64,000 bases of DNA. It comes from Xestospongia bergquistia. Lineage: Eukaryota > Porifera > Demospongiae > Haplosclerida > Petrosiidae. Where the stretch lies: NCBI GenBank assembly GCA_963965975.1, contig OZ014413.1, forward strand, positions 5,652,001 through 5,716,000. The letters run 5' to 3'. Made by a program: the position numbers and the translations under genes. The notes below the pieces were generated by a model. That model had not been told where the DNA came from. It was given only the letters and a program-made list of their open reading frames with translations, and ran no database searches. This document shows positions 930-52,562 of this stretch, piece after piece. How positions within the stretch are numbered: position 1 is the stretch's first letter; each line of letters begins with the position of its first letter.

Positions 930-1829
930 TACATTGAATTGTGACATCTTCAGAATGACTACATCCTTGATAAGAATTAGTAGGACAACTCTGACATGAA
1001 CCCAAACAAGAAAAACTGCTACTACAAGCTAAGTTACTCATCCAAATATGTTGAAATGAAATACCAGACCTATAGCAAATATAGTAGACTTCCAATATAA
1101 TCTATTGTACTAAATATACAAAGAAAGATGATTATATCTTGTAGTATAGTTTGAATATCCCAATTGTTTACAGACAACAAGTACATCATTAGAATCAAAT
1201 CCATCATTGCATATTGTTTCCCATTGTCCATTACAGTCCTTCATTAGAATAATTTCCTCCCTGAAGATGTATCATACCAGGGTAAGGATTACTGTTCCAG
1301 ATCCTTGTAAAATCTAAATCACAATACATGTAGATGTTATACTATAATAATAATATTAAAACTCACAGCAGGACACAGTACCATCATAAGTGTTAGTGTT
1401 AGTACATCCACTACCAATGATAGTAGAGTAGAAACATTGTAGGATAGTGAGATATGTGTTGTTAGTACAGTTGACATCATCCAGTACCATTGGGCTGTAG
1501 TCAGTGCCATAACTGAAATATTTGCAAATAATTCATGATGTTTTAAAAGACAGTTTTTATGAACCTAACCTTGCCAATCCAGCTCTAGAGTAACTTGAAG
1601 CTCCAGTATATCCCAATTGATGACAGATGACCTCAGCTTCATATTGACTGTAGTAGGTATCATCACAGATATTACCCCATTGTCCATTAATATAGATCTG
1701 TACTATACCATAGTAATAAGAGGATAAGGTGTATCCATTACGATAAAGACGTGTAGTACCAAAACCAATATGGCTAGAAGAATCTATATCAACATAATTA
1801 GATGGCTTTGAATATGAACTGCTATATAC
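930..1829 (-). CDS. SRCR gene A, cassette 4 (membrane-proximal, two SRCR domains)
   Basis: Four exons: 1570-1829, 1367-1512, about 1125-1309 and 930-1069, with donors GTTAGG, GTGAGT and GTAAGT visible on the minus strand. The first exon fuses the short linker seen separately in other cassettes to the first half-domain. The third exon lacks 14 nt, relative to the matching exon at 7,865-8,069, just after the NGQW region, which shifts the frame. The fourth exon diverges from the other copies and has CLGSCQSC in place of the usual DTCYGTRNSC. Confidence 0.7.
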
Positions 1830-1910
1830 TAAAGAATAAAATAATCATAATTAGAAATAATAGATTATTTATTAAAAAATATTTTTTTTTAAATATAACA
1901 TCTTACTACA

Positions 1911-3344
1911 TGTGACAGTAATATCTTCATAGTGAGTACAACTAGATATTGAAGTTGATGGACAGGAATTTCTAGTACCATAGCATGTGTCAGAAGATGA
2001 ACTAGACATGTATGTACTCCAAATTGGTTGACTGGAAGTACCAGACCTAAATAATAGACAAATAACTTCAGATAAGTTGTTAGAGATGCTATTGTGACAG
2101 TCACATTGAAAATACTTAACCACTTGTTAAACATTTACTAAATAACTTTTAATGGTTTTGATGATAGTAAAACTGTAGAAGACTAAATAGTAAGCTAGCC
2201 TTGAAAGTCAATTAGTGATAACATTCAGGCTATGCTCACAGTAGTATCCAAGTGAAATTAATGATTGTTTTATGTGTTGGCAGTGAAGGATGTGGTTAAT
2301 GCTTCATAGTGTTGCATAAGACAATAGAATAAAATGATACAAGTGGACATACAAACATAACACATGATCCAAAACAATTTTACGACTGTCAAGCAAAATA
2401 AAAACAATTTCATTAAAGTAAATAAACTGTTTCATAGTTAAAAAATTGGTATAGATTAGTACTTTTATTAATAGTACTTACAGACTTAAGTGATCATATC
2501 TATGGTAGTAATTATATCCCAATTGTTTACAGATAGTTTGAGCATCAGTAGAACTAAATCCATTATCATATATCATTCCCCACTGTCCATTACAATAAAC
2601 CTCAACATGTCCTTCATTAGAATAATTTCCTCCCTGAAGATGTATCATACCAGAGAAAGGATTACTATTCCAGATCCTAGTGCTATCTGTAACAAATGTA
2701 GCAATTTATTAATGTAATATTTATAGACTAACAGCAGTACACAGTAGCATCATAAGAGTTAGTATTATTACATCCACTATCAATGTATGTGGAGAATGAA
2801 CACTGAAATGTAGTAAGGTAGTTGCTACTATCACAGTTGAGGTCATCCATCTTCATAGACAGAGTATCAGTCCCATAACTAAACAGACATAATGTAGACC
2901 ATGATTATTAGATAATTCTAACCTCACTAATCCAGCTCTAGAGTAACTTGATGCTCCAGTATATCCCAATTGATGACAGATGACATTAGCTTCAGTAGAA
3001 CTGTAGTTGACATCATCACAGATATTACCCCATCCATTATTGTAATAGACCCTCACAATACCATAGTAATAGGATGATGAGGTATACCCATTATGATATA
3101 AAGTTATAGAGCAACATCAACTAAAATTATAAAAGATTATCATACTCTAATTTCTAACTGAAAGGATTACAATATATAGTCAATACACATGCATGTGTAT
3201 TGACTATCTATGGTAATCCAATACTCAATAAACTTATTTAAAAAGCTTATAACAATCGTCTAACGTGATAATATATTACTTACAAATTAATCCGAAACAA
3301 GTAGTTTTTGAATTAGAAGGCTTTGAATGTGAACTGTGATGTAC
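1911..3344 (-). CDS. SRCR gene A, cassette 3
   Basis: Exons near 3283-3344 (Ser/Lys-rich linker ending in a Cys), 2924-3116, 2732-2878, 2482-2690 and 1911-2046. Together they form two SRCR domains with all expected cysteine motifs, including [25 protein letters not shown] and CYGTRNSC. I see no clear break in this cassette. The intron between 2,046 and 2,482 (about 435 nt) is the longest inside a cassette here; the others are mostly 40-120 nt. Confidence 0.65.
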
Positions 3345-3426
3345 TAAAGAATTAAATAATGAGAATAAATAAACCCTAATTTGTAGCATTATTTTCAATA
3401 AAATTATTTTAAAAAAATAATAACTT

Positions 3427-4745
3427 ACTACATGTGACAGTAATATCTTCATTGTGGTTACAAGTAGTTATTGAAGTTGATGGACAGGAATTTCTAGTAC
3501 CATAACATGTGTCAAAGGAAGTACTATACATATATGTACTCCAAATTGGTTGACTGGAATTACCATATCTGAAATGATGCTAACATTGAAACATCTATTT
3601 GCTCATCAATAACATTACTAACAAGTAATTAAAAAGATCATAGTTATAGTAATTGTTATATCCTAGTTGTTTACATATAGTTCAAACATCAGTAGAACTA
3701 AATCCATTATCTCATATTGTTCCCCACTGTCCATTACAGTAGACTTCAACATGCCCTTGATTAGGATAACTACCTCCCTGAAGACATATCATACCAGGGA
3801 ATGGACTACTGTTCCAAATCCTATTGGTATCTGTAACCATAATGACAAGCATTAAGGAAAAACTTATACACTTACAGCAGTACACAGTAGCATCATAAGA
3901 GTTAGAGTTAATACATCCACTATCAAGTATGAACATTTGCACAGTTATATACTTATTATTAATTTTGTTGTTTACTTATGTAGGTACTGTCATTGTCAAT
4001 CGCAAGCTGGATCAGCAAGCATTAAGGAAATACTTATACACTTACAGCAGTACACAGTAGCATCATAAGAGTTAGAGTTAATACATCCACTATCAATGGT
4101 AGTAGAGAAAGAACACTGAAATATAGTCAGGTAGCTACTACTGCCACAGTTAAGATCATCCATCTTCATAAATAGAGTATCAGTGCCATAGCTAGACATA
4201 AAAATGAAACTATGACCAAAACTAGTTAATTCTAACCTCACTAATCCAGCTCTAGAATAACTATAGGCTCCAGTATATCCCAATTGATGACAGATGACAT
4301 TAGCTTCAGTAGAACTGTAATAGGAATCATCACAGATATTACCCCATCCATTATTATAATAGACCTTTACAATAACATAGTAATAGGATGATGATGAGTT
4401 ATACCCATTACAATGTAGAATAATGGCACCATTTCTAGCAATATCATCTAGATGAAAGAGATTAACATTCTCTAGCTACAAACTAATTACAATGCTTTAG
4501 TTGATATACATACTATTACTATTGTCTTTGCAAACAAATGGATTAATTATTCAAGCAGATCTAAATACTAATTCATAATTTCCAGATACACATATATTAT
4601 ACATTAAACAATGTACAAGTAGGAAAAGTATGTAGCTTGCAATATAATTGAAATAATAATAATATATGTTGTGATAACTTACATGTTAGTCCAGAACAAG
4701 TAGTCTTTGTATTAGATGATTTGGAATAAACAGTGCTGTAAGCTA
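3427..4745 (-). pseudogene. SRCR gene A, cassette 2 (premature stop, partial exon duplication)
   Basis: Exons near 4681-4745 (linker), 4238-4450, 4041-4192, 3640-3830 and 3427-3571. In the 3640-3830 exon the usual TGT of WGTIC is TGA, so the frame stops at a cysteine that SRCR domains need. Bases 4014-4095 recur at 3843-3926, about 170 bp apart. The block holds the end of the second half-domain exon and its donor, so a partial second copy of that exon is present. Confidence 0.65.
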
Positions 4746-5102
4746 AAGGAAATATTATTTATATATTTACATATTTATAGAGTTTTATCTATTGAAACAC
4801 AAAACATTATTACATAATAGTCAGTCTAAGAATATTTTTTAGATGATGTTAAAGTAGTAAACATTGTGTTGTGTCTACAATTGATGATATCATACAGATT
4901 GAAAATAAATGCTTGTTATAAATGCATCACTGTAATTGTACTGGTGTTGAAAGCATTTAAGTAAACAACAATGTCATGATTGAACAGGCCTCCCCAAACA
5001 ATTAATAAATATAATATTAATTTTATGTCAATGAGGTAATAACACTACTCTCCATTTTTAAACATTGCAATAATACAAATTAACAGTCATATGATACTTG
5101 CT

Positions 5103-6036
5103 ACTTTCTACTGTAATATCTTCATAGTGGTTACAACTAGTCACTGAAGTTGATGAACAGGAATTTCTAGTACCATAACATGTGTCAGAGGAAGAACTAG
5201 ACATGTATGTACTCCAAATAAGTTGACTAGAATTGCCAAATCTATTATAGTAATACAATAGCCTATAATCCTGATATATCATTTATAATTATACTTACTA
5301 GTATTATACACTAATGTCTGATTAATTATTACTTTTTCAATGTCTTTATACTTACAGACTGAGGTGATCATAATTATATCAACTGTTATATCCCAGTTGT
5401 TTACAGATAGTCCAAGCATCAGTAGAACCAAATTCATTATCACATATTGTTCCCCAATGTCCATTACAGTAGACTTCCACACATCCTTGATTAGAATAAC
5501 TACCTCCCTGAAGATGTATCATACCAGAGAATCTTGAGGGATGATCTCTTCTCTCAATTATCTTTAGTCATTATGGCATTCCAGATCCTAGTGGTATCTG
5601 TAACAAAAATCATTACTATTAAGTAAATATTGATACTCACAGCAGTACACAGTAGCATCATAAGAGTTAGTATTAGTACATCCACTATCAATGTATGTAA
5701 AGAATGAACACTGAAATATAGTAAGGTAGTTGCTACTAGCACAGTTGAGGTCATCCATCTTCATAGATAAAGTGTCAGTGCCATAACTAGATAAAAATAA
5801 TGTAGAGCTTGATTATTTTATAATTCTAACCTCACTAATCCAGCTCTAGAGTAACTTGTTGCTCCAGTATATCCCAATTGATGACAAATGACATTAGCTT
5901 CAGTAGAACTGTAGTAGTAATCATCACAGATATTACCCCATCCATTATTGTAATAGACCCTCACAATACCATAGTAATAGGATGATGAGGTATACCCATT
6001 ACAAGACAGCCTTATAGCACCATTTGTTAAACCTAT
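5103..6036 (-). pseudogene. SRCR gene A, cassette 1 (most N-terminal seen)
   Basis: Exons near 5831-6036, 5639-5790, about 5355-5590 and 5103-5242. The first reads NGAIRLSCNGY and then WGNICDD, and follows a TATAG acceptor, so at least one upstream exon is missing from view. The third exon contains 47 nt of unrelated sequence (5531-5577) where the other copies have 10 nt; the net change of 37 nt shifts the frame and brings in a stop. No promoter or signal peptide could be recognised up to 6,900. Confidence 0.65.
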
Positions 6037-6054
6037 ATAGTATAATAAAAACAT

Positions 6055-6929
6055 TAAATTTGGTCTTCCATAGGGATTTTTATAATTTACTCAACCTTAA
6101 CCACATTGTTTACCTAGTGACTAACTGGAATAGTGCTAAGACATACATATGAGTATATCTCTACTCTTAGTGTAGGAAGTATTACATTAGTCTTTTTAGT
6201 TAACATAACATAGTCTTTGAACACTGTTTATGGATTTCATAGTTTCAGTGACCAGTATTCGCACAAAAACTTTCTTATTATGCATGTCTTTCTATTAAAT
6301 AATTTAATATTATTATAACTTCTTAAATTTCGATTCATAGAGCAGATAAAAGTTTGTTGTTTTATTATAATAGTAACAGTCTGTGGTAAAAGGTCTGGTT
6401 AATGTAATTATAAATATGAATATCATGAGTAGAACATGATATGGTTGAAAGTATTTATATTAAAATAATATTGTAGTAATATTTATGTATGCTGATAATA
6501 CATACTAATCTTTTATTAACATTTTGCAGATTCATTTCCCCAATTAACACTAACAACTCAATACTACCTCAATGCTAACCACCAATTAATTCACTTTTTG
6601 AATATCAAGACATGCATAAGCTGTAATATAATTATTCCTTATCTAAAAAGTAAGGAAGCCATACATGTCATAGTTTGTTATAAGGATCCATTAACATTTT
6701 AAGCATGTAATAGTGCTGGTATTACTGCAAATGCACATTAACTCAGTAATACATCACCAATGATATTACTTAAGGTTGGTAGGGATTCAATTAAGACAGT
6801 ATTGATGTCAATTTCATTATAAAAAGATAAAAGGAGATTAGAATTACAAATATTAAAGTTAATTATTGAATGCCCTAATATGCAGCTATGCTAAAAATAT
6901 TTTATAGAACTATATAGATTGTATAGTCG
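6055..6929. other. AT-rich intergenic stretch between the SRCR paralogues
   Basis: About 870 bp without a recognisable coding exon or repeat. It should hold the 5' end of gene A and the 3' end of gene B, but no signal peptide, TATA box or poly(A) signal stood out from the A+T background. Confidence 0.4.
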
Positions 6930-7221
6930 TTAACACAGACAGCAAAGAACAAGTAGATTTGGTTTGTTTTCATTTTTTAAAAAGGTCGGCATAACTTGGA
7001 GGAGCAGGAGTGGCATAGATGGGACTGTTAGATTTGTTGTTTGAGTTGTTTCAGGAGATCTAATTGTTTGCAACTCAACTTGTTGGGTGTTGTAACTTCT
7101 AACATTTTGTCTCTTGCATTTTTTCCAATAACAACAACAGCTATACAGCAAACAATAGACACAATAATTAGTACCAAAATAGAACCAATTGTACCACCAA
7201 CTGGTCCAGCTATGTTTGATG
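6930..7221 (-). CDS. Transmembrane and tail exon of SRCR gene B
   Basis: Closely matches 1-479. The exon opens at 7221 with SNIAGPVGGTIGSI and a hydrophobic helix. In the helix frame it ends after a short Lys/Gln-rich tail at about 7028. Another frame is open to 6930 and matches the tail start of gene A (NVRS, then NTQQ, then ELQTIRS). The Pro-rich extension and PPPY motif of gene A are absent. Confidence 0.6.
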
Positions 7222-7671
7222 CTAGAAAACAATAAGTAATCATAAAATGATGTAGAGTTATAGCATTGCTCTGCTAAAGGATCTAATCAATATACATATA
7301 GCACACATCATAGTTTATACTTTAGCATTGAGTTACAGGAAGTTGTAGGAGAAGCAGGAGTAACTCAATGACATGTAGTCCTTAGTGCTGATACTGATGA
7401 CAAATTCTTTGGATTACTTAAAAATTTAATTTGACATGATTACAATGTGAAATATGTACAGTTATGTTATGTTATCAGAGTCTATCCTTTATCCTATAAA
7501 AATACATTTGGATACTTTTATAAGTATTAATTTCTCTAGACATATTCTTTAACTAAACCATGGACTAATGTAAGAGCCATTCATAATATTTTTAATTAAA
7601 GTAATACCATAATTTTGATTGCTTTTACTAATAAGAGTTGATTAGTTTTAACAATATGTGTCATTCCAACT

Positions 7672-8715
7672 TTCTACATTGAATTGTGATATCTTCAGAA
7701 TGACTACATCCTCCATAAGAATTAGTAGGACAACTCTGACATGAACCCAAACAAGTAAAACTACTACTACAAGATAAGTTAATAATCCAAATATGTTGAG
7801 ATGAACTACCAGACCTATAACAAATATAGTAGACTTCCAGTATAATCTATTGTACTAAACATACAAAGGAAGATGATTATAATTTGTATAGTTTGAATAT
7901 CCCAGTTGTTTACAGAGAACAAGTGCATCATTAGAATCAAATCCATCATTGCATATTGTACCCCACTGTCCATTACAATAGACCTCAACATGTGCTTCAT
8001 TAGAATAATTTCTTCCCTGTAGACGTATCATACCAGGGAAAGGATTACTGTTCCAGATTGTTGTAGAATCTAAATCACAATAAATGTAGATGTTATACTA
8101 TATTAATACAATTATTACTCACAACAGGACACAGTAGCATCATAATAGTTAGTGTTAGTACATCCACTACCAATGATAGTAAAGTGGGAACATTGTAGGA
8201 TAGTGAGATAGTCATTGTTAGGACAGTTGACATCATCCAGTAACATTGGACTGTAGTCAGTGCCATAACTGATATTATTACAAATAATTACTCTTTCTTA
8301 AACGACAATTTTAAGAAACTAACCTCACAAATCCAGTGCTAGAGTAACATGATGCTCCAGTATATCCCAACTGATGACAGATGACATCAGCTTCATATTG
8401 ACTGTAGTAGGTATCATCACAGATATTGCCCCATTGTCCATTGATATAGATCTGTACTATACCATAGTAATAGGAGGATAAGGTGTATCCATTACGATAA
8501 AGACGTGTAGTACCAAAACCATTATAGCTAGAAGCTACATTGATAAAATAAGAAAACAACTATGTTACTAATAAGATAATTACACTCAAGTGCTTGAAAT
8601 TATAGATCTTGAGATACATTTGTAAATAATTCAAAATAATAATAGTATAGTTACTAACAAATTAATCCAGAACAAGCATTCTTTAAATTAGAGAGTTTTG
8701 AATAGTAAACTAAAG
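7672..8715 (-). CDS. SRCR gene B, cassette 4 (membrane-proximal)
   Basis: Exons near 8660-8715 (linker), 8323-8535, 8122-8268, 7865-8069 and 7672-7812. They align exon by exon with 930-1829 of gene A, about 6.7 kb away, and here the 14 nt missing from gene A are present. Both SRCR domains appear complete. Confidence 0.65.
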
Positions 8716-8763
8716 AATGCAATAATGATAATGAGTAAACCTAAGTAATTATAACAACTTATT

Positions 8764-10265
8764 ACATGTGACAGTTACATCCTCATGGTGGGTACAACTA
8801 GTTATTGAGGTTGATGGACAGGAATTCCTAGTACCATAACATGTATCAGAGGAAATGCTAGACATATATGTACTCCAAATTGGTTGACTGGAATTACCAG
8901 ATCTAAATAATAGACAAATAACTCCAGATAATTTGTTAGTGATGCTATTGTGATTTTCATATTGTAAGTAGTAGACCACTTGTTCAGTGTTTAAAAATGG
9001 TTTTGAAGATAGAATAACTACAGAATGCTAAAAGGTAAGCCAGTCTTGAGAATCAATTAATGATAACCATTATGGCAGGGCTTACAGTAATGGTAAAGTG
9101 AAATTAATGGTTGTTGTATGGTATGGTAGTGAAGTATGCGATTTGATGTTGTTGTAACAACAACAAAATAAATGACACTAGTGGAACTAAAAACATAACA
9201 CATGATCCAAAACAGTTATAAGGTTGATTGTCAGGAAAAACAATTTTATAGAAGTAAAATAAACAGCTTCACACTTAAAAAAATATTGCAGATAGTTTCT
9301 TTGATTTACAGTACTTACAAACTTAAGTGATCATATTTGTGGTAATAATTATATCCCAGTTGTTTACAGATAGTTAGAGCATCAGTAGAACTAAATCCAT
9401 TATCACATATCGTTCCCCACTGTCCATTACAATAGACCTCAACACGTCCTTCATTAGAAAAATTTCCTCTTTGAAGACGATTACTGTTCCAGATCCTAGT
9501 GGTATCTGTAAAAAATGTAACAAATGATAAGAATATTTATAATGACTTACAACAGTAAACAGTAGCATCATACGAGTTAGATTTAGTACATCCACTATCA
9601 ATGACAGTAGAGAATGAACACTAAAATATAGTGAGGTAGTTCCTGCTGGCACAGTTGAGATCATCCCTTTTCATAGATAAAGCATCAGTGCCATAACTAA
9701 ACATTGATAACGTAGAGCTTGATTATTTGATAATTCTAACCTCACTAATCCTGCTCTAGAATAAGTTGATGCTCCAATATAACACAATTGATGACAGATT
9801 ACATTAGCTTCAGTAGAACTGTAGGTGGGAATCATCACAGATATTACCCCATCCTTTACTGTAATAGACCCTCACAATATCATAATAATATGATGATGAG
9901 GTATACTCATTACGATATAAAGTTATAGCACCATTTTTAGCAACATCAGCTAAGTTATAAAGATTATCATACTCTAATTTCTAACTGAAAAGATTACCAC
10001 ATATAGTCAATAAACATGCATGTGTATTGACTATATATGGTAATCCTAGTCAATAAACATGTTTAACAAGCTTATAACAGTTATCCAACATGATAATATA
10101 TTACTTTCAAATTAAATGAAAGGATTATCATATATAGTCAATACACACGTTTAACAATCTTATAACATTGATATAATACATAATATAATTACTTAAAAAT
10201 TAATCGAGACCAAGTAGTTTTGTAAGTAGAAGACTTAGAATATGAACTAAAATGAACTAAAGAAT
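8764..10265 (-). pseudogene. SRCR gene B, cassette 3 (frameshift)
   Basis: Exons near 10200-10262 (linker), 9742-9950, 9551-9698, 9317-9510 and 8764-8902. The 9742-9950 exon has one extra base near 9,830 compared with the other copies, so the WGNICDD part and the ICHQLG part are in different frames. The 9317-9510 exon lacks about 15 nt near 9,480 relative to sister exons. Confidence 0.6.
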
Positions 10266-10324
10266 ATAACAATGATAATGAGTAAGCCTAAGTAAATAAA
10301 AATTATTTAATATAACATAACTTA

Positions 10325-12218
10325 CTACAAGTGATAGTAATATCTTCAGTGTGAGTACAGTTTGTTATTGAAGTTAATGGACAGGAATTTCTAGTACCAT
10401 AACATGTGTCATAGGAAGAGCTAGACATGTATATATTCCAAATTGGTTGACTGGAACTACCTGGCCTGAATTAATGACAAAAAATGTAAAATATTCTTAA
10501 TGCACAAAAACCAAAGTAAACAAAACAGAAATTTATCTTAAAATGACTATAAAAATAATGTATAGATGAAATTTGCTTCATACACACTAAGGTGATCATA
10601 ATTATAGTAATTGTTATATCTGAGTTGTTTGCAAATAGTTTGAGCATCAGTAGAACCAAATCTGTTATCACATACATAGGGGTATGAGGGTAAAAATTAT
10701 TGGGGGTGCTCATCAACACTGAAGTATGGTAATCGCAGGCTCCTAGGGGGGTCTGGGGAAAATTTTGAAATTTGAAGCTTTCAGAGTATGGTTATTATCT
10801 ATTTTTAGGACAATTTGAGGTTCCATAATGATAAGCTTTACTTACCTAATTAATTGCATCTTGCTTTATTTCTCATTGTAAGCAGTGTGACTGCTGTAAA
10901 GCAACTATAATTATAATGCTTATATTTTACTAATTAAACAATTATGTGCATGCAGAAAACATTTAAATGTAAAGAATAATAGTTAAATGTATAATACTTG
11001 TGTATGACAGGTGTAAATGCATGTAGTTTGTTAAAATGTTCCAAAATGAGCTCTACATTCTTCGCTAGTAGCTATAAACTCTTTAGCAATGCTCTTTATA
11101 TCAAGAGAGTCATTTATGTGCTTGTGCATGTGTAAAAGAAGACAGTGGTTGAGCCGTTGCTCGGTCATTGTTGAGCGAAGATAGGTTAGTACTCGTCTGA
11201 GTGCTGAAAAAGATCTCTCTGATGTTTAGTTAACTAAAACTGAGCACTGGCAGCTGAGTCACACTATTTACAATGTATTTGTAGTTGAATTTTACAAGCA
11301 TCTTGTAAACCACAGAACATTTACATGTATAGGTGTACATTGTTACATTGCAAAGCCGTTAACTTGGTGCTTTGGCAACGTGAATTCACCTGAAGAATAA
11401 TTATATTGGGGGTGCTCTGCACCCCTCACCAAATTATTGGGGGTGCCTGAGCACCTCCAGCCCCCACCCTCCTACGCCTATGACATATTGTTCCCCAATG
11501 TCCATTACAATAGACCTCAACACGTCCTTCATTAGAATAATTTCCTCCCTGAAGACGTATCATACCAGAGAAAGGATTACTGTTCCATATCCTAGTGGTA
11601 TCTGCAACAAATGTAAAAAATGGTAAGGGAATAGTTGTACTCACAGCAGTACACAGTAGCATCATAAGAGTTAGTATTAGCACATCCACTATCAATGTAT
11701 GTAGAGAATGAACACTGAAATATACTAAGGTAGTCGCTACTAAAACAGCTGAGGTCATCCATCTTCATAGATAAAGTATCAGTCCCATAACTAGAGTGTG
11801 ATAATGTAGAGGTTGATATTATATAATTCTAACCTCACTAATCCAGCTCTAGAGTAACTAGAAGCTCCAGTATATCCCAATTGATGACAGATGACATTAG
11901 CTTCAGTAGAACTGTAGTAGTAATCATCACAGATACTTCCCTATCCATTGTAATGGACTTTCAAAATACCATAGTAATAGGATGTTGAGGTATACCCATT
12001 ATGAGATAAAATTAGAGCACCATTTTGTGCAATGTCAGCTAAATGATTGAAGATAATCATATTTTAATTGATAACTGAAAAGAATATCATATTTAGTCAA
12101 TACACAAGTTTAATAATAATATAACATTGACTTAATATAATAATATAACTACTTACAAATTAATCCAGAACAAGTAGTCTTTGAATTAGAAGGCTTTGAA
12201 TATGAACTGCTGTAAACT
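10325..12218 (-). pseudogene. SRCR gene B, cassette 2 (hAT insertion in exon)
   Basis: Exons near 12156-12218 (linker), 11831-12040, 11643-11790, then one exon split into 11483-11600 and 10575-10674 by an 808-bp insert, then 10325-10466. Removing the insert and one ACATA copy rejoins the conserved WGTIC region, so this was a single exon. Confidence 0.7.
10675..11482 (-). mobile_element. Non-autonomous hAT relic inside an SRCR exon
   Basis: Imperfect terminal inverted repeats of about 17 bp: CATAGGGGTATGAGGGT at the left against CATAGGCGTAGGAGGGT read inward from the right. ACATA (10670-10674 and 11483-11487) flanks both sides, shorter than the usual hAT 8 bp. On the minus strand near 11,050-11,230 a piece reads SERSFSALRRVLTYLRST and then RLNHCLLLHMH, the C-terminal dimerisation region of TTF-type hAT transposases. 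The rest of the transposase is missing, so it would need a helper. Confidence 0.8.
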
Positions 12219-12286
12219 AAAGAATTCAATCATTACAATGAGTAAACCTAAATAATTATATCATATAACAAATTAATATAATAACT

Positions 12287-13098
12287 TGTGACAGTAATAT
12301 CTTCAAAGTGGTAACAACTACTTATTGAAGTTGATGATGGACAGGAATTTCTAGTACCATAACATGTGTCAGAGTAAGTACTATCCATATATGTACTCCA
12401 AGCTGGTTGACTGGAATTAATAGACCTGAAATAAGACAAACGTTATAACATCTATTTTGCTATTCATAGTTTTACTCACAAATAATTGTGATGATTATAA
12501 TTATAGTAACTATTATATCCTAGTCATTTACAAACAGTCTGAGCATCAATAGAACTAAATCCATTATTGTTCCCTATTGTCCATTACAATAGACCTCAAC
12601 ACGTCCTTCATTAGAATAACTACCTCCTTGAAGACGTATTATGCCAGGGAAGGGATTACTGTACCAGATCCTAGTGGTATCTGTAACAAAAATTATATAT
12701 ACATAAAACATTGCACTCACAGTAGTACACAGTAGCATTATAAAAGTTAGTATTAGTACATCCACTATCAATGTATGTATCAAAAGAACACTGAAATATA
12801 GTGAGATAGCTACTGCTGATACAGTTAAGGTCATCAATGTTTATAGATAGACTATCAGTGCCATAACTAGACATAAAAATAAAACTAAATCAGGTTAAAA
12901 CTAGTTATATCTAACCTCAGTAATCCAGCTCTAGAATAACTTGATGCTCCAGTATATCCCAATTGATGACAGATGACATTAGCTTCATATTGACTGTAGT
13001 AGTAATCATCACAGATATTACCCCATCCATTATTGTAATAGACCCTCACAATACCATAGTAATAAGATGATGAGGTATACCCATTACGATATAGAATA
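12287..13098 (-). pseudogene. SRCR gene B, cassette 1 (pogo-like insertion in exon)
   Basis: Exons 12914-13098 (continuing across the transposon to about 18,104-18,125), 12719-12866, 12478-12680 and 12287-12425. In the 12478-12680 exon the Trp of the WG motif is TAG and six nt are missing right after it, an in-frame loss of the next cysteine region. The first exon breaks exactly at the transposon end. Confidence 0.7.
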
Positions 13099-13440
13099 GG
13101 GTAAACGGCGATTAAACGGACTGGTCCTTTTTTCGGACGCTATATCTTCAGACCTGAAGATGCTATTGATATGGAACCAAATGAATCTGAAAGAGAAGGA
13201 TTTTAAACCTTGGAGTTGCAAAAATTAACTAGATCGCAAGTATAGCCTTGATGTTGGAGGCGGGAGAAAAGGAAGTCTTGGTAAATGTTTACTCGAACGG
13301 GTGGTACCGTTCCAAATCTAACAAATATAATTTGTTCACATATCGAAATACATCTGTAATAAATTTCAGCTAAAGCTGACTACGATGTGACTAGATAAGA
13401 AAATATTCAGCAAGCGGGTCCAGTAAACGGACATACGTAA
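13099..13440 (+). repeat. Left terminal inverted repeat of the pogo-like element
   Basis: Matches the reverse complement of 17,701-18,101 almost base for base over the outer 180 bp. It lacks about 44 bp present in the right arm (about 17,845-17,888). The short motif AAACGGAC occurs near both ends of this arm (about 13,113 and 13,431). Confidence 0.85.
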
Positions 13441-13620
13441 CAAAAGAGTGTGGCTTCATTATTTTAAAGTATTAATTTTTATTGTAGCAATAGTGTATGT
13501 AGGCCTAATTAATTATTACATGAATACAAAAATTATAGACATATATCTTGGAAGGACTGAATTTTTCATCTTAGTTTCAATAGCAAAAGTGTATGTTAAA
13601 TTATTACATGAATACAAAAA
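13441..13620. repeat. Short duplicated 3' flank of the transposase gene
   Basis: The segment around 13,470-13,545 (TATGT, then ATTATTACATGAATACAAAAATTAT) recurs at 13,585-13,625, next to the stop codon of the PHD exon. It is a local direct duplication about 100 bp apart in the presumed 3' untranslated region. Confidence 0.5.
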
Positions 13621-13787
13621 TTATTGACATTTGTCACAGAAGAAGTTGACTGTATTTTTCATCTTTAGTTTCAATCCAACACAAACTTGATGAAACCATC
13701 CTCCACAGTACTCACATTCTACCCACTTATAAGCTTTGGGATGCTCACACTTCTTATCTTCGCAATTTGTAATAACTTGTCCAGTGT
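13621..13787 (-). CDS. C-terminal PHD-finger exon of the pogo-like transposase gene
   Basis: 167-nt last exon, acceptor CAGCAG at 13788 and stop TAA at 13621-13623. It enters in phase 1, matching the phase of every upstream mini-exon. The 55-residue product has a C4HC3 pattern: Cys-x4-Cys in NCEDKKC, then ECEYCGGWFHQVCVGL, then FFCDKC at the end, the layout of a PHD zinc finger, which usually reads histone tails. PHD modules are not part of the standard pogo transposase core. The exon is intact although the catalytic part of the gene is not. Role in the element is unknown; targeting to chromatin is a guess. Confidence 0.8.
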
Positions 13788-13831
13788 CTGCTGGATACAA
13801 AATATTATTTGTAAAAATTAATTATAATTAC

Positions 13832-15124
13832 CTCTCTCATTAACATTACTGCATGTAGATCTAGTAACTTGTTCAGTAAATCCAGTAGGAACAATATCTG
13901 TATCAATAAATACAACATACTCTAGTTAACTATAAAAGTATTATTACCTCTCTCATTAGTAAGTTGAGTGCATCCAGATCTAGTACCTTGCCTAGTTACT
14001 CCAGTAGGAACAACATCTATATCATTAAATACATTATATTCTAGTTAACTATAAAAGAACTATTACCTCTCTCATTAGTAAGTTGAGTGCGTGTAGATCT
14101 AGTACCTTGTCCAGTAGGAACAATATCTATATCATTAAATACATTATATTCTAGTTAACTATAAAAGAACTATTACCTCTCTCATTAGTAAGTTGAGCAC
14201 ATGTAGATCTAGTACCTTGTCCAGTAGGAACAACATCTATATCATTAAATACATTATATTCTAGTTAACTATAAAAGAACTATTACCTCTCTCATTAGTA
14301 AGTTGAGTGCGTGTAGATCTAGTACCTTGTCCAGTAGGAACAATATCTATATCATTAAATACATTATATTCTAGTTAACTATAAAAGAACTATTACCTCT
14401 CTCATTAGTAAGTTGAGCACATGTAGATCTAGTACCTAGTCCAGTAGGAACAACATCTATATCATTAAATACATTATATTCTAGTTAACTATAAAAGAAC
14501 TATTACCTCTCTCATTAGTAAGTTGAGTGCGTGTAGATCTAGTACCTTGTCCAGTAGGAACAATATCTATATCATTAAATACATTATATTCTAGTTAACT
14601 ATAAAAGAACTATTACCTCTCTCATTAGTAAGTTGAGCACATGTAGATCTAGTACCTTGTCCAGTAGGAACAACATCTATATCATTAAATACATTATATT
14701 CTAGTTAACTATAAAAGAACTATTACCTCTCTCATTAGTAAGTTGAGTGCGTGTAGATCTAGTACCTTGTCCAGTAGGAACAATATCTATATCATTAAAT
14801 ACATTATATTCTAGTTAACTATAAAAGAACTATTACCTCTCTCATTAGTAAGTTGAGCACATGTAGATCTAGTACCTTGTCCAGTAGGAACAACATCTAT
14901 ATCATTAAATACATTATATTCTAGTTAACTATAAAAGAACTATTACCTCTCTCATTAGTAAGTTGAGCACATGTAGATCTAGTACCTAGTCCAGTAGGAA
15001 CAACATCTATATCATTAAATATATTATTCTAGCTAACTATAAAAGGACTATTACCTCTCTCATTAGTAAGTTGAGTGCATGTAGATCTAGTACCTTGTCC
15101 AGTTATTCCATTAGGAACAAAATC
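13832..15124 (-). CDS. Array of mini-exons: 60-nt exon plus 50-nt intron, repeated
   Basis: From 14,065 to 15,053 the sequence repeats every 110 bp, nine nearly identical times. On the minus strand each unit is a 60-nt exon with an AG before it and GTAATAG after it, and a 50-nt intron. All exons are phase 1 and read DIVPTGQGTRSTRTQLTNER (type A) or DVVPTGQGTRSTCAQLTNER (type B). Types alternate A-B for most of the array. Two diverged units lie downstream: exons 13948-14016 (69 nt) and 13832-13897 (66 nt), with three and two extra residues after PTG. An upstream unit at about 15,055-15,124 is 70 nt, one base out of frame. The array joins the coiled-coil exon (ends phase 1 at 15,587) to the PHD exon (starts phase 1). 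No domain family is recognised in the 20-residue repeat. Confidence 0.85.
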
Positions 15125-15159
15125 TGTATAATTATATTCATAATTACCTACAACTATCA

Positions 15160-15245
15160 CTTCTCTCTTTAACATTGTTAGTAAATTGAGTGCATGTATA
15201 TCACCTACTTTGTTCAGTTATTCCAGTGGGAATATTCTGTATCAT
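15160..15245 (-). pseudogene. Degenerate mini-exon unit upstream of the array
   Basis: On the minus strand this reads NIPTGITEQ, then a break, then TCTQF and VKER, clearly related to the array peptide but with a stop and changed splice sites. It may be an ancestral unit that lost function. Confidence 0.55.
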
Positions 15246-15435
15246 AAATACTAGCTGAGTTATGATACATTAATCTTTTATCTTTGCAAATCATGATGAG
15301 TGCAGTTATCGAAATAGTGTCTACTATATCTGTTACTCATACAACTTCTCTAAATAATTTGATGTCAATTTGTCATGCCAACACAATATGCCAAAACCCA
15401 AGGTTTAATAAGAGTTGCCGTGATTATATAGTTCA

Positions 15436-15514
15436 TTAGATGTCATTCCTACTGGATTAACTGGAGGAGGTAGTAGATCTACACATACTACACTTACTAG
15501 TGATGTTAATGAAA
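15436..15514 (+). repeat. Inverted copy of a mini-exon
   Basis: On the plus strand, opposite to the array, the sequence reads DVIPTGLTGGGSRSTHTTL and then SDVNER, an older relative of the array repeat. It cannot be spliced into the same transcript as an exon in this orientation. Confidence 0.7.
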
Positions 15515-15586
15515 GAAGTTACAGTGCATATATACTATATAGTTGATTATGAATATACACAGGTCACACACACCTTAATTACTAAC

Positions 15587-17540
15587 CTTGTAGTAGTAGT
15601 TTCGATTCATGCTCTATCTTTTCTTTCTGTTTGTTAATCTTTTCCTGCTGTTCTTGAATCCATTTCAGTTGTGCCTCAATCTTCCGTTGGTGTTGTTCTT
15701 TCTTTTCTTTGTTCTTCTCATCTCGTTTTCTTTCCCTTTCCATTTTGTTTTGTTCTTTTCTTTTGATTTCAGTGATTATTTTCTCTTCCTTTTCTTTTAA
15801 TCTCTTTCGATTTTCTGCACTTGTGATCACCTTAGCAGAGGAAGAATGACTTGATAAAACAGGTAACTTAACAGAAGATATTTCTTTGTCCAATACTTTA
15901 GCCAATGTTCCAGTTCATTTGAGCAGATTGATAGGTTGAGCTATGTTAGTGTCAAGCTGTTTTTGAGAAGTGAACGTATGCTGTGACCTCAGCCATCCAT
16001 TATAATGAGTATCAGTATCAATATCATAACCTTCCCCTTGTCTTCTTCAATACTTTGCTTCTTCTTCAGCAGTAAATACAAAGTCATCTTCTGTTATTGA
16101 GTTGTCACTATTGTTCCTCTCTGGTGATAGTGGTGACTCATAATAAGATGGATCATAACACGACATCCTACTTAATGATCTTAACTTTGATAGATTAGAA
16201 GGACTTAAATGACATGAAGGTGATGGTGTGATATTGATAGAGTGCAATTGAGAATGGTCAAGGGTAGAAGGTGGAGTAGACTGATAAACATGGATATAAA
16301 AATGAGACTGGGGTTGAGGTGTCTGAAGAGGCTGCAGAAATGGGTTGTGTTGACTTGATACAGGGGAGCTCTTATCTTCAGCAGGGAGCAATTTTGTCTT
16401 GTCAAGAGGGTAAATACCTGTGTTATGAAATCCTGAAATTATATTCAAAGGTGTCATAGCTTTCAACCATGCTTTGCTAAATATTGTGGAGAAAGAAAAC
16501 TTAGAAATGACTTTTCCGAGGTTCTTTAACAGGAATGCATGACATTTTTCTCTCTATGTTTGTTTAAGGGAAGAAAAAGCACCTTTATCCAATGGTTGGG
16601 TGCGGTGTGTACTGTTGGGAGGGAGACACATTACTATGATTTTCTCATTTGCTGCCCTATGTATGAAATCAGGTGTGAAATGAGATGAATGACCGTCCAT
16701 TAGTATCAATAATGGACAAGCTGGTGGGGCATATCTTAGGAAATGAAAAGTAAACCAATCAGAGAAAATTTCTTTGTTGATCCACCCACTTTCTGACAAA
16801 CCATACATAGTTCCTGGAACTTCCCCTACATCCATTCCATCTTGTAGTGTTTCTGATTTAAATATATATTACTAGAGGAGGCATGCAGTAACCTCCAGCA
16901 CTAACACAGGCTAGAACAGTAACTTGGCTCTTCTTGCCACTAGTAAGAGATGTTGGATGCTTTTGACCTTTTTTTGCAATTATATTTGGTGGAGGTGGAT
17001 CAAGTGGAATTCCTGTCTCATCTAAATTGAAGATCTGGCATGGGCACTCTTGTAAACCTTTCTTAGACAAGGTTTGACATAATAAATCGAAGTACTTTTC
17101 TAGTGGCACTTTATTTGTCCCGATAGCTCTAGCACGAGAAACACATTCACTTACTCTTAATGATAATTCTGGATGCCTACTAACAAAAGATTTCCAGCAG
17201 CTATTTGTTACATTAGTGTTTATTCCCTTTTCATTGACCACCTGCTGTGCAATAGTAATAGCTTCTTTTCTTGTACAAGCACAGCCTAACTTTGCACAGT
17301 TTATTAAAATGATGACAAGTTTGTTTCTTCAACAGAGTCTAAGTGCTTGTGGCGACCACGTCTAGCATTAAGTGCTACTTTACCAGACACGTGATCATAA
17401 AGAGTAGATTTGGGTATACCATACTCTTCTGCTGCTCTTCTTATCGACAAACCGTCATGAACTGACTGGACTGCTCTTTTTAGTCTAACCTTATCAAGTT
17501 GGGCAGACTGTAAGTGGAATAAAATCACTTTGCCGTGCCA
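15587..17540 (-). pseudogene. Transposase of the pogo-like element (HTH, DD35D core, coiled coil), inactivated
   Basis: Read from high to low coordinates. 17,528-17,330 holds a psq helix-turn-helix (LSIRRAAEEYGIPKSTLYDH). About 17,300-16,554 holds the CENP-B-type DNA-binding region and DDE core: first Asp in FNLDETG, second in LILMDGHSSH, third in QPLDKGAF, 35 residues after the second (DD35D). 16,466-16,047 is a Ser/Pro-rich spacer. 15,905-15,587 is a Lys/Glu-rich coiled coil (KRKEQNKMERERKRDE) ending in CAAG before GTTAGT. The product would cut and reinsert the element in the nucleus. Breaks: frameshift near 17,308, frameshift at an AT run near 16,862, TAG near 16,551, in-frame TGA near 16,047 and 15,915. 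The exact start codon is unclear. Confidence 0.85.
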
Positions 17541-17700
17541 TGATGCTATAAAATATGAACCATAAGTAAAAAATGCCTAAATTTACTTCTATACTACCTT
17601 TTCAACGATAGATATCCTATCTTCATACCCAGATTAGTCGACTGAGAGTTGACAAATTTCAAATTCAATTTTCACTTCACACACGTGCTTGCCACTCTGC

Positions 17701-18101
17701 TTACCGTAGTTGTCCGTTTAATGGGCTGTGTGCTGAATATTTTCTCATCTACCATAGTTAGTCACATTGTAGTCAGCTTTAGCTGAAATTTATTACAGAT
17801 GTATTTCAATATGTGAACAGTTATAATATTATTTGTTAGATTTGGAACAATCGGTTTGTTCTGTCTCGAGTGTTAAGTGCTGTCCGTTCAATGGTACCAC
17901 CCGCTCGAGTAAACATTTACAAAGACTCCCTTTTCTCCCGCCTCCAACATCAAGGCTATACTTGCGATCTAGTTAATTTTTGCAACTCCAAGGTTTAAAA
18001 TCCTTCTCTTTCAGATTCAGTTGGTTCCATATCAATAGCATCTTCAGGTCTGAAGATATAGCGTCCGAAAAAAGGATCCGTCCGTTTAATCACCGTTTAC
18101 C
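17701..18101 (-). repeat. Right terminal inverted repeat of the pogo-like element
   Basis: Reverse complement of 13,099-13,440 with an extra segment of about 44 bp. It carries three copies of GTCCGTTTAAT or a near match, at about 17,711, 17,883 and 18,080, the same motif as AAACGGAC in the left arm. Repeated subterminal motifs of this kind are usual transposase-binding sites in pogo-like elements; binding here is inferred. Confidence 0.85.
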
Positions 18102-18436
18102 TATCTCCATTTGACATCTACATCTATCATTAACAATTGGTTAAACTGTATATGCATATTCAGTAGTAAAGCTTATATTATGAAACATCAGTTCTTTAAG
18201 CTTTAATTTTTTGTTTGATATTTTTCAACAATGGAAGTCTTGTTTGGGACAATGTTCTTGTAAAGATTACTTGTATCTGTTTCTTAGTAGCCACCAAGTA
18301 AATGATTTTACATTTTTCAATGCAGCAATTGTACTTTAAACTTTAAAGCTACATATAATTATAACAAAATTGATGTCCATTGATCAGATTGTTAGTAATT
18401 TTTTTTCTGTTACAATAGAATGGGTAGATAGCTTTT

Positions 18437-33757: not shown

Positions 33758-36700
33758 CTAGCTGGTAATTACAAGTAAATTTTTAAGTGTATTGTTCTTG
33801 ATTCTTCTAATCCAGACATCTTCCATACCCACTTCTCTCCAGTCATTTTGATGGGTTCTAGCAGCTATAGCAATAGCTCCACCCTGTTCAATACATGCTT
33901 TTAGAAACTTGCCACAATGATCCTTTAGTTCAGAGTGTGTAGTTATCAAATCTATTCCTGCTTTAAATTCACCAATGATGTCATCAAATTTAGATGACCT
34001 ATGGACTTCTCTGTTAATGAGACCAGCTGTGTACATCTCATGAGCTAACGCATTTAGAAAACTTGCACATGAATTGTTTAATTGAACATGATGTTTAGTA
34101 AGAACTTGGATAATTAAGTGTCTTAGTTTGGTAGCATCATTAATATCTAAATAAAATATTATAAATATAATATATAATATAGTATCTAATATCTACCATT
34201 TCCTTTAATTTATCATCATGCAGCTACAGTATAAAATGTGTTAGCAAAACAAGCGCATAATTAACCTTGCTTTCACATAGCTAGTCCATGCAAGGGAGAG
34301 GATTACAGTAAAGTACTTGCTCTGTGTGTCTGTTACTAGGCAAGGAAGGTTGAAATGCTCTGACTCAACACAACAATGTACATACTATCGTATAAGTATA
34401 TCAAATTTCTACACTATGTAGAAAGAAGAACATTGTGCCAATCCACACATAGGCAGTGCTATTACTTGCCTGATGCAGCTAAAATACTTGGTAGAGATAT
34501 GGCAAAAGTGTGTTCAGCACTATAAATTCATGAATTTTTTAAAAGATGAAAAGACCTTTAAAAAAGCATAGCCAAAAGAAAGAGTTTATTACTTTAGAAA
34601 CCTGTGTCGAAATCTGCCCTTCTTAAATCTATGGCAATTTCCACTCACCTCAACCAATGCCATCATTTGTAGAGATACATGTAAGAGCTGTTACTATCAT
34701 AAAACTACTGGTATAGTCAGTGTTACAGACAGTGTTGTCAGTGAGTGTTGCTTTAACAAATATGTAGCTTAGCCAAAAAGTTCTAAAAGATTAACATCTG
34801 CAAATGCATGACAGTTTTAGACAGATGATGTCACATTATTTTGATTAAACTGATACCACACCTGAGTCTTAGCAATACTTTTGACTTTGAGACAAAGTCT
34901 GGTGTTCTACTATTTGAGAAAGTTCTCAGTGGCAGCATGATAAACTATAACTCAATATAAATATTAGCTACTACTACACCAAGGATGTTTCACATTATAG
35001 TGGTTTTCAACATATCAATAAAATCAAAAAAATAAATACATACCTGTGTCTACTAAAACAGTTCTCTTATTGACTGATGCACTAGTTGAGTCAAGAATCA
35101 TAAAGATAAGAAATCCATAATTATCAGTTAGTCACCATCATTATTGCTAAGAGAACGTATAATAAAAATCTTCCTGTTATGAGGTTTGATTCCTCTTAAT
35201 GGAATGCAATATTTTATTCCAATGACTGTATCAGATCTATGTTCAGCAGATACTGTGATCAGTATAGAACCACAAGATGGAGGATCTTCAGAACTGAACA
35301 TGTCCACATCACTCTTGTATAGCTGTACATAATCATCCAAATATGTGTACAAATTGGTAGTATAGTCCTACCACTGAATCTTGATGAGAGTCAATAATCC
35401 ATCCAGTAAAAGAATGCTCTTGTTCTTCGTTAAGTGCTAGCTTGATGTAACCATCATCTTCAAATGTAAAGGACAAGTGGACATACTTTTCAACATTAGG
35501 TTGAAGAGACTTCTTTATAAACTGTATGTGTATTGTTAAAAGATTAAAAAGACAATGTCAATGTTTTGCTACTCACTTCATGTAGAGCATTGAGACATTT
35601 ACCAACCAAAAATCGCATTAACCATTCCCTACCTTGACATTTTACTTCATATACTACCTGACCTGCATACTTGTTATCAGCAGAAGGTCGTGACTCATCT
35701 ACAGAAGAATATGCATTACAATGGCTACAACTCTAATCTACTTTTAATTTTGACTTGTTCATTAGGTAGAACTGATGAGATAGAAGGTTGTGGAGACTCA
35801 TCTAAACTATGTTTAACAGATGTTTTTTAAAAAAAAAGATTATTTGAGCTTTATGAACGTGATAAAATATATTCTGAAAAAATTACAGAACGTTTCGGCC
35901 AAAGGCCTTCATCAGCTGTATGAAACTAGGCAAATAAGTCACGCTATTTATAGCAATGCATGATTGTTTACAGTTAGTAATTGGGCTAAGAGGTGAAAGG
36001 TTGTCCCAGAAGGCTAAAAAGAGACGCTAATTTGTTCCGTGTAGAAGGTGAGAAAACAACATCTTGGACCATAGAGCTCAAAACAGACGCGAACTAGTTA
36101 ATTGTTGTGGGCGTGGCTAATGATTATTGATTTCGAACCGGTATGTTGTAGAGCAGAGACGTCCAGGTAGGATTGATGATAAAGCCTGGATCTAGGTTGA
36201 TGGTGTTGCTAGTGGTTTTGATGAATATTGCTTCTTTGGTCTTTCTCTTCCACCAGCTGATCTCTTGTTCAAGTATTCTGCACTCATCCCATAAAATCTT
36301 GTGTCCTGTATTGATGAAGTGGAGAGCCAAAGCATTGGTGGTATCACCATTTTTAACAGCCCTCTTGTGTTCAGCTTTTCTTATTTTCATTGTTCTGCCA
36401 GTTTCTCCAATGTATACAGCACCACATTCGCAAGGGATCTCATAGATGACTCCCACTTTATCCTCTGGTGGAGTAGGGATCTTGACATGTGATAGGGATC
36501 TCCTAAGTGTATTTCTAGAGATAAATGCAGTTTTGATGTTGAAGGAACAACAAGCTTGACTGATGCCTTCACTTAGGCCTTTGACATAAGACATGGTGTT
36601 CCTTGGTGTAGGAAAAGATCAACTTGTTTGAGCACTAGGAAATATCTAAGAAAATTTAAGTAGAAATACTATCAATAGACAAATGTGAGGGACATATCCA

Positions 36701-44981: not shown

Positions 44982-46097
44982 CTACTGATGAGACCCTGAA
45001 CTTGCATTAGACTTCTTTAAGGTGAGGTCTACATTTTTTAAACATTGTAGGACAAGGTGTAAATTTTGGAGGTGGTCTGCTTCACTTGTACCTGAAATAA
45101 GAATATCATCGAAATAAACACAGACATGAGGTAAGTCACTTAGAAGGGTTTCCATGATTTCTTGGAAAATTGATGGAGCAGAAGAGGTGCCAAAAGGTAG
45201 CCGTTCATACTGGAATAGTCCTTTTGGTGTATTTATGGTGGTGTATTTCTTGGAGGAGTCATCCAGGGGTACTTGAAGGTAGGCATGACTAAGATCTAGT
45301 TTAGTGAAAATCTTGTCTCCAGAGAGAGCAGTGAAAAGATCATTCACACGAGGGAGTGGGAATGTATCAGGAATGAGAGCTGGATTTATGGTGACCTTAT
45401 AATCTCCACATAAGCGAATTGATCCATCTGTTTTCACAATGGGCACTATGGGAGCTGCCCAGTCAGAGTGTTTGACTGGAGTAATGACTTGTAAGTCCTG
45501 TAGGTGCTGTAGTTCCTTGATAACCTTTTCTTTCAGAGAATAAGGAACCGTATGGGCCTTTAAAAAACGGGAACAAGCCTCTGGATTGACTAGGATCTTT
45601 GCTGTAATTTCTTTCAACCGGCCAATGCTTGAAATAAAAACCGCTGAATGTTGATCTAAAACCTGTTCTAAGGTAGAAAAAGTGTTAAGTAATTTAATGT
45701 CTGACCAATTTATCTTGATTTCCTCAAGCCAGTTACGGCCTAGCAAATTTGGACCATCTCCTGGAACAACTAATAATGGGAGTGCTGCACCTTGGGACTG
45801 GTAGTTGACTTGGATATAAATAGATCCTAGAGGAAAAATCTTTTCTCCTGTATATGTAGTGAGTGTAAAATTAGATGGAGTAAGTGGGCCTAAAGTACTT
45901 GACAAATTTGAGTTAGTTGTTTCACTAATAAGTGAGAGGGAAGCCCCTGTATCTAATTCCATGGGAAGGTCAACTCCCTGCACTTGAACTGTGACCACAA
46001 TGTGTCTGGTCTTCCCTGGTAGTGTAAACATAGGGTAGTCATTTGAAGTAGAAGGAGGGGATCTGTCTGATGAGGCCTGGCCTTCTTCATTAAGCAA
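44982..46097 (-). pseudogene. Gypsy protease and reverse transcriptase segment
   Basis: Open for 371 codons. Protease active site MELDTGASLSLIS lies near residue 50; reverse transcriptase motifs FTKLDLSHAYLQVPL and VYFDDIL (the YxDD catalytic pair) follow in the last third. Both catalytic centres look intact, but a one-base shift near 44,985 separates this from the RNase H part downstream. Confidence 0.8.
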
Positions 46098-47691: not shown

Positions 47692-48050
47692 GTACCACAT
47701 GAGTATAATCTGAATCATGATTACTATGATCAGCACCAAGAGGGAGTTATGACAACCAATTGCTGCAGAGGGAGTAACTGTTTTAGTGGGTGCAGCTCCT
47801 CCAACTCCTCTAGAGGGAGTAACTGTTTTAGTAGGATTGACTCCTCCAACTGTTCCGGTAGGAATGCTCCTCCAACTGTTCTGGTAGGAATGACTCCTCC
47901 AACTGTTCCGTTAGGAATGATTCATCCAACTGTTCCAGTAGCAATGATTCCTGATGTACATTAGAATACAGAATAGAATACGGTATCATGATAGATAAAA
48001 GATTTATTTATATAGTGTCTACTGTCTAGTAGCACCTCCTTCAGACATTG
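47692..48050 (-). pseudogene. Truncated paralogue of the secreted Cys-rich/GPI-type gene
   Basis: Minus strand 47,965-47,692 matches the C-terminal part of the gene at 51,750-52,550: four loose repeats of TGTVGG(V/A)IPT, then PTKTVTPS and a hydrophobic end, with frame breaks. Directly upstream (47,985-48,045) lies sequence matching the 5' flank of the intact gene (52,715-52,760). The whole cysteine-rich body between has been deleted. Confidence 0.7.
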
Positions 48051-51749: not shown

Positions 51750-52550
51750 TCAGTAGCACATGACTATAATCTGAATCATAAATACTGTGATTAGGACCAA
51801 GAGGGAGCTATCACCAACAATTGCTCCAGAGGGAGCAACCGTTTTAGTGGGAGTGGCTCCTCCATCTACTCTAGAGGGAGTAACTGTTTGAGCTACAGTA
51901 GGAACAACTCCTCCAACTGTTCCAGTGGCAATGATTTTTGATGTGGCACCTGCAACTGCTCTAGATGAAGTAAATGTTGTTATGGTAGGACTGACTGTTC
52001 CTGAGGAACAGGAATTGGTGATGTTACATGATGAGTCGTTTAAAAGTTTATAGTAACCAATAAAAAGAGGCAAAGTACAACAGCTCAAGTAATCAGAAAT
52101 CTTTTGCAACTTTTGATGGCAAGAGCTGCCTCCAATACAATGTAAAGTTTTGACATCATCAGTTTCTGTGGAAGGACAGATCCCTGAGTCCAGACTTCCT
52201 ATTGGAGATATTATTCCCGTAGTTGTTCCACGCACGTGATGGACTAAGCAGTATTCCTGATTGAGCTTTCCACACAAACCTTTATTGAGAAAACTAATTT
52301 CTTCACTGTCGTTTAAACATCGAAAATATTGATCTGCAGTATTCTTACACTGACTAGAGCAGTAGGTAGATATTTTCTGATTGAATTGGACGTAATTGAC
52401 ATTAGTAGGGACTGACGTCAAATAAACACTATCTGTAAAATTTACGAATTCTTGGCCGCATTTTGTGCCCACGACTATAGCTGTGCAATTTTGGCTATTG
52501 ACAACAGCAATTAAGCAAAATATTAGAAGCAAAGAAATGATTTTCTGCAT
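51750..52550 (-). CDS. Secreted Cys-rich protein with GPI-type C-terminus, intact
   Basis: Intronless 266-codon frame, start ATG at 52,548-52,550. Signal peptide MQKIISLLLIFCLIAVVNS, cleavage likely before QNC. The body (residues about 20-185) has about 18 cysteines, including SSQCKN and CIGGSSCHQK, and several N-glycosylation sites such as NCT and NDS. A Thr/Ser/Gly/Val-rich stalk follows, with repeats like TGTVGGVVPT and TPTKTVAPS, then GDSS and a hydrophobic end LLVLITVFMIQIIVMCY. Without a basic anchor after the helix, this fits a GPI-anchor signal. A cell-surface protein is likely; I recognise no family. A truncated paralogue lies at 47,692-48,050. No frame lesion is seen. Confidence 0.75.
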   Translation of the reverse strand: MQKIISLLLIFCLIAVVNSQNCTAIVVGTKCGQEFVNFTDSVYLTSVPTNVNYVQFNQKISTYCSSQCKNTADQYFRCLNDSEEISFLNKGLCGKLNQEYCLVHHVRGTTTGIISPIGSLDSGICPSTETDDVKTLHCIGGSSCHQKLQKISDYLSCCTLPLFIGYYKLLNDSSCNITNSCSSGTVSPTITTFTSSRAVAGATSKIIATGTVGGVVPTVAQTVTPSRVDGGATPTKTVAPSGAIVGDSSLLVLITVFMIQIIVMCY

Positions 52551-52562
52551 CGTTAAGAGCAA

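Follow-up and report, generated by a model that had tools for sequence, protein, structure and literature searches.

The window analysed here, a 64,000-nucleotide stretch of contig OZ014413.1 from the sponge Xestospongia bergquistia, carries a pogo-like DNA transposon whose transposase gene, read on the minus strand, contains a tandem array of short candidate exons and introns (Table 1). The assignment to the pogo superfamily is based on a DDE_1 domain with DD-35-D type spacing (35 residues separate the second and third catalytic aspartates of the DDE_1 fragment), a Psq/CENP-B-type helix-turn-helix domain, and terminal inverted repeats bordered by TA. The left flank of the element is an SRCR gene (Pfam SRCR, 2.9e-9), and seven further related stretches were found in the window. 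When the flanks of the element were joined, two of these seven paralogs (5864-6026 and 9774-9936) aligned for about ten bases across the junction, and the other five ended at the junction or just short of it. The minus strand at 1236-13100 carries a row of at least eight related SRCR stretches, of which the transposon interrupts one; one account of sponge SRCR arrays gives three exons per domain (PMC10855680). Searches of viral and prokaryotic contig collections with the DDE_1, PHD and upstream DDE proteins and with DNA patterns of the cassette and the inverted repeat yielded no confirmed relative of the element, which, in collections of viruses and prokaryotes, says little about sponges or other animals. 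Within the window, a 57-nt stretch at 62719-62775 shows 77% identity to the 3' part of the transposon (E 1.5e-4), and an imperfect tandem duplication of about 95 bp (77.7%) is found at 13485-13675, between the PHD exon and the left terminal repeat.

Table 1. Features of the transposon and of its exon-intron array (window positions)
Feature	Position	Strand	Basis or remark
Pogo-like DNA transposon, whole element	13099..18101 (ends approximate)	-	inverted repeat arms, domains, located ends
TA, left copy of presumed target-site duplication	13097..13098		sequence at element end
Left terminal inverted repeat, best-matching 212 nt	13100..13311		96% complementary to 17890-18101
PHD exon including stop codon	13621..13790, start 13790 or 13787	-	Pfam PHD E 3.4e-7; phase check
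Last cassette exon of the array, 66 nt	13832..13897	-	
Cassette exon, downstream edge, 69 nt	13948..14016	-	
Nine 110-bp units, each a 60-nt candidate exon then a 50-nt intron	14017..15006	-	
Cassette exon, upstream edge, 69 nt	15055..15123	-	
Old sense unit, exon of 76 nt	15161..15236	-	TGA in cassette frame, frame lost
Inverted old unit, 78-nt exon	15440..15517	+	open in phase 1 between AG and GT
Lys/Glu/Arg/Gln-rich exon	15587..15914	-	ends in phase 1
Two more ORF fragments in one frame	15918..16553	-	split by stops
ORF fragment with DDE_1	16557..16868	-	Pfam DDE_1 E 1.1e-15
ORF fragment, N-terminal part of DDE region	16861..17328	-	frame 1; DDE_3 below cut-off
ORF fragment with HTH_psq	17307..17576	-	frame 2; Pfam HTH_psq E 1.8e-12
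Right terminal inverted repeat, best-matching 212 nt	17890..18101		
TA, right copy of presumed target-site duplication	18102..18103		

The transposase frame of this copy is dead. The frame that bears the domains shifts twice, where the fragments overlap at 17307-17328 and at 16861-16868, with a possible third shift close to the start. Three stops also break it, around 16554-16556, 16047-16049 and 15915-15917. No stops interrupt the Lys/Glu-rich exon, the 12 intact candidate exons of the array (here called cassettes) or the PHD exon. The Lys/Glu-rich exon comprises 109 codons and one base, followed by GTTAGT; Lys, Glu, Arg and Gln make up 60% of its last 89 residues, from which Pro and Gly are absent. 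Two tandem acceptors, both in phase 1, precede the PHD exon, giving a last intron of 41 or 44 nt.

Tandem Repeats Finder reported a period of 110 with 10.1 copies and 95% matches at 14000-15103, within an array that, as the first-pass annotation had placed it, lies between the Lys/Glu-rich exon and the PHD exon of the transposase gene. When cut at GAGAGAG/GTAA, the array contains 12 donors, and the donor context is identical in all 12 candidate exons. Followed along the gene (minus strand), these exons measure 69 nt, nine times 60 nt, 69 nt and 66 nt; they are separated by 11 introns, of which one has 48 nt and the others 50 nt, all with GT-AG borders, and nine of the ten 50-nt introns are identical, the remaining one being diverged. 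Read in phase 1, none of the 12 exons contains a stop. The tabulation bears out the earlier description of nine near-identical units of a 60-nt exon and a 50-nt GT-AG intron, and of phase 1 throughout, as far as the 12 intact units and the flanking exons are concerned. The older exons of 66 and 69 nt that had been noted at the downstream edge are both there, and another 69-nt exon stands at the upstream edge. A 17-base unit motif allowing up to three mismatches has 13 matches in the window, as against 0.29 expected by chance.

Twelve of the 13 sense units have GT-AG borders, a length that is a multiple of three, and the same phase; the thirteenth is the old 76-nt unit with its stop. The frame safety proposed for the array therefore holds for the 12 intact units, which keep phase 1, but does not extend to every unit. 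The nine central units are of two types, A and B, which differ at four perfectly linked exon columns; a fifth variable exon column (Gln/Leu) sets apart units 1 and 6, and none of the 50 intron columns varies. The array shows an age gradient from diverse and partly broken edges to a uniform centre, which matches the expectation for renewal by unequal exchange or slippage. Unequal exchange, the process suggested in the first-pass annotation, or slippage fits the alternation of A and B types, the Gln/Leu variant common to units 1 and 6, and the older units at the edges.

The PHD domain scores 30.6 bits against a Pfam cut-off of 24. Among the 11 solved sequences matched at E of 0.01 or below, the nearest are KDM5B (E 1.4e-6) and KDM5A (1.9e-6), followed by SHORT LIFE, PHF23 and TAF3, and two tryptophans are conserved in the alignment with KDM5B; such residues can form part of a methyl-lysine cage. 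Within its opening codons the PHD exon has ACTGGACAAG in common with the cassettes, in the same phase. This 10-nt match, which had been noticed before it was tested, was reached seven times when the PHD exon start was shuffled 3000 times, and in none of 32 other windows of the element, the largest match there being 8 nt. The agreement hints at an origin of the cassette in the 5' region of the PHD exon. As to an origin elsewhere in the window, the search gave no cassette-like stretch better than E 3.

The candidate-exon model of the unit was compared with 5000 dinucleotide shuffles of one unit, allowing an intron of 40-74 nt, a YAG acceptor and an exon of at least 30 nt, limits that were chosen after the unit had been seen. 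A phase-1 exon model with a donor at -6.7 kcal/mol or better was obtained in 54 of the 5000 shuffles, and a model in any phase in 135; at -6.2 kcal/mol, the bar set by the upstream donor, the counts were 74 and 223, and at -5.0 kcal/mol they were 262 and 696. The regular units, their common phase and their GT-AG borders, together with the roughly 1% of shuffles that do as well, thus lend moderate support to a reading of the units as exons. The U1 pairing of the cassette donors, -6.7 kcal/mol, is attained by 1.9% of the 3770 minus-strand GT sites, the 12 cassette donors included, and the 17 SRCR donor matches scored in the same way range from -1.0 to -6.3. At the +5 position, however, the cassette donors have T, whereas all presumed SRCR donors aligned have G. 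Reading through one array intron leads to an in-frame TAG. Introns as short as those of the array would be normal if the host resembles Amphimedon queenslandica, whose ribosomal protein genes are reported to have introns with a median of 68 bp and a shortest of 37 (PMC3412847). A structural-RNA role of the unit was dropped, its fold being no better than that of shuffles (z -0.28, 71 of 200 as good).

These data bear on the possibility that the array is a non-coding minisatellite inside one large intron, with its donor at 15586 and the acceptor of the PHD exon at its other end, in which the open exon would be a coincidence or an unspliced relic. Skipping of the whole array, with 15587 joined to the PHD exon, would indeed retain phase 1; the +5 position of the cassette donors is weak, loose exon models are not uncommon among the shuffles (the counts at -5.0 kcal/mol), the joined cassettes have no Pfam match, and nonsynonymous divergence lies near the synonymous level (see below). 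We nevertheless consider a single large intron unlikely, as so few shuffles combine a phase-1 exon with a donor as strong as the actual one and the diverged units, even the inverted one, are still open and in phase.

Among the six unit types, pN roughly equals or exceeds pS in the majority of the 15 pairs, each with few changes; between unit 0 and the inverted unit, for example, synonymous divergence is 0.17 and nonsynonymous divergence 0.21. Purifying selection on the cassette peptide was not detected in these 15 pairs, and because pN and pS are about equal, the cassette exons need not have been translated at any time. When edge units are compared with central ones, the differences, too few to build on, amount to 3 of 48 and 7 of 50 positions in the introns and to 2-3 of 60 and 6 of 60 in the exons.

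No private substitutions are present in the nine units, which together span 990 bp. The terminal repeats differ by about 4% (10 of 250 best aligned columns, or 26 of 344 with the poorly aligned inner part), so the block was likely renewed after decay of the element had begun. With 2% divergence per arm, 19.8 private changes would be expected and the probability of seeing none is 2.5e-9; it is 5e-5 at 1% and 0.007 at 0.5%, where 4.95 changes would be expected. The last homogenisation of the nine-unit block is therefore probably later than the death of the element or the onset of its decay, an argument that would be weaker if the repeats were already different before insertion or if the array was smoothed in assembly.

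The first-pass annotation had proposed that the array makes a splice-dependent linker of variable length, built of 20-residue cassettes and placed between the DDE/coiled-coil part and the PHD finger. On this view the linker could be functional, arising by splicing of all or some units and maintained by selection in active copies. Several features would suit such a linker: the 12 intact units are without exception open and in frame, the lengths of the open units (78, 69, 66 and 60) differ by multiples of three, the cassette donors pair well with U1, and the PHD exon is open and encodes a domain whose closeness to KDM5B and KDM5A makes a chromatin-reading end on a flexible arm imaginable. In this copy, however, a selected, splice-dependent linker is made less likely by the two frame changes and three stops, with which it could hardly be used in a working transposase, and by an amplification that seems to postdate decay. 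Nor does the divergence among units, with synonymous and nonsynonymous changes alike, show any constraint or preference for synonymous changes, and one of the four inferred length changes, that to 76 nt, is not a multiple of three. We therefore regard the linker as doubtful.

On balance, we slightly favour the explanation that a cassette exon with phase 1 at both ends was multiplied by unequal exchange or slippage, yielding a minisatellite of phase-symmetric exon-intron units within a broken element of the pogo-like kind; the frame safety of the array is then probably a by-product. The transposase gene of the element may originally have ended in the PHD exon. A short exon in phase 1 on both sides, which may itself stem from the opening part of the PHD exon, would have been tandemly duplicated in front of the latter together with its downstream intron, and ancestral copies presumably spliced such units. 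Since an exon that is symmetric and a multiple of three leaves the frame undisturbed when copies are added, slippage or unequal exchange could have enlarged the array, producing first the diverse units (78, 69 and 66 nt) and later the homogenised block of nine 60+50 units, mostly as A-B dimers. The latest round probably took place after the transposase had been broken, in which case the array behaves in this copy like a minisatellite with a unit that just happens to consist of one exon and one intron.

For active sister copies one can further imagine an arm tuned by splicing, in which the number of 20-23-residue cassettes would set the reach between the cutting part and a PHD finger reading histone marks, so that a change in copy number would alter the choice of target, and in which the inverted unit in the first intron could pair with cassettes in the pre-mRNA and bias their choice, somewhat like the docking sequences in insect Dscam; we consider this very unlikely. 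That the 3' half has been domesticated, as a host gene of the Lys/Glu-rich exon, cassettes and PHD exon beside a decaying DDE part, appears highly implausible: the absence of stops there, against three in the DDE part, says little because the intact stretch is short, and the 76-nt unit within it is broken.

Returning to the exon-intron minisatellite, its nearest known counterpart appears, by analogy, to be the titin PEVK region, the exons of which share one phase. There too, short repeated exons, whose number is altered by slippage or recombination, encode a linker of variable length, and neutral processes have been discussed as a possible explanation of exon number, but titin, as that account presents it, belongs to the muscle genes of the host, has many exons of diverse kinds and is known to be alternatively spliced, in contrast to the nine near-identical units of a broken transposon (PMC6469411). 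Tandem exon duplications likewise involve neighbouring exons; they are described for mutually exclusive exon choice in host genes, and the abstract does not mention an exon-intron minisatellite in a transposon (PMC9013439). With the pogo superfamily of IS630-Tc1-mariner elements, the element has in common HTH_psq, DDE_1, the DD35D spacing and the presumed TA duplication, whereas the words "PHD" and "intron" have 0 hits in the main text of the review (PMC7386202). Ginger1-9_HM also has a PHD finger on the C-terminal side of its transposase, but this is a Gypsy-integrase-type transposase with Ulp1 and not a pogo transposase, and no exon array is mentioned in the passages available (PMC2836005). 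In the Tetris foldback transposon, internal tandem repeats of a DNA transposon expand into satellite-like arrays as they do here, although an exon-intron unit, unlike in the present array, is not mentioned in the entry listed for it (PMC4079207). A mini-exon array in a transposon was not found among the literature matches listed (the best 12-20 of 19 to 1,209), which lends weak support to the earlier remark that no description of one in a pogo-like transposon was known.

Should living copies splice the cassettes, a transposon would carry an exon-level minisatellite that changes protein length without frame cost, and nature would have provided a way to ask whether the spread of phase-symmetric exons reflects their usefulness or just their harmlessness. 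Should the cassettes not be spliced, the array still shows how a decaying element can copy exon-intron pairs as whole units, and how frame symmetry alone can resemble design.

Several other elements and repeats were observed in the window. An ORF at 36127-36594 on the minus strand, reminiscent of a GIY-YIG nuclease, has no Pfam match at E 0.01, and Pfam likewise gave nothing for the protein at 51753-52562. Similar Val/Gly/Pro/Thr-rich repeats, one of them a 27-bp tandem array, are found at 47785-47951 and 51846-51950 on the minus strand; considered as relatives of the cassettes, they were rejected, because they match a 9-residue repeat query and not the cassette. A hAT C-terminal dimerisation region is weakly indicated at 11034-11225 on the minus strand (E 0.004, below cut-off), and a reverse transcriptase domain (RVT_1, 5.3e-24) with an aspartyl-protease-like part at 44985-46097, also on the minus strand, apparently belongs to an LTR retrotransposon.
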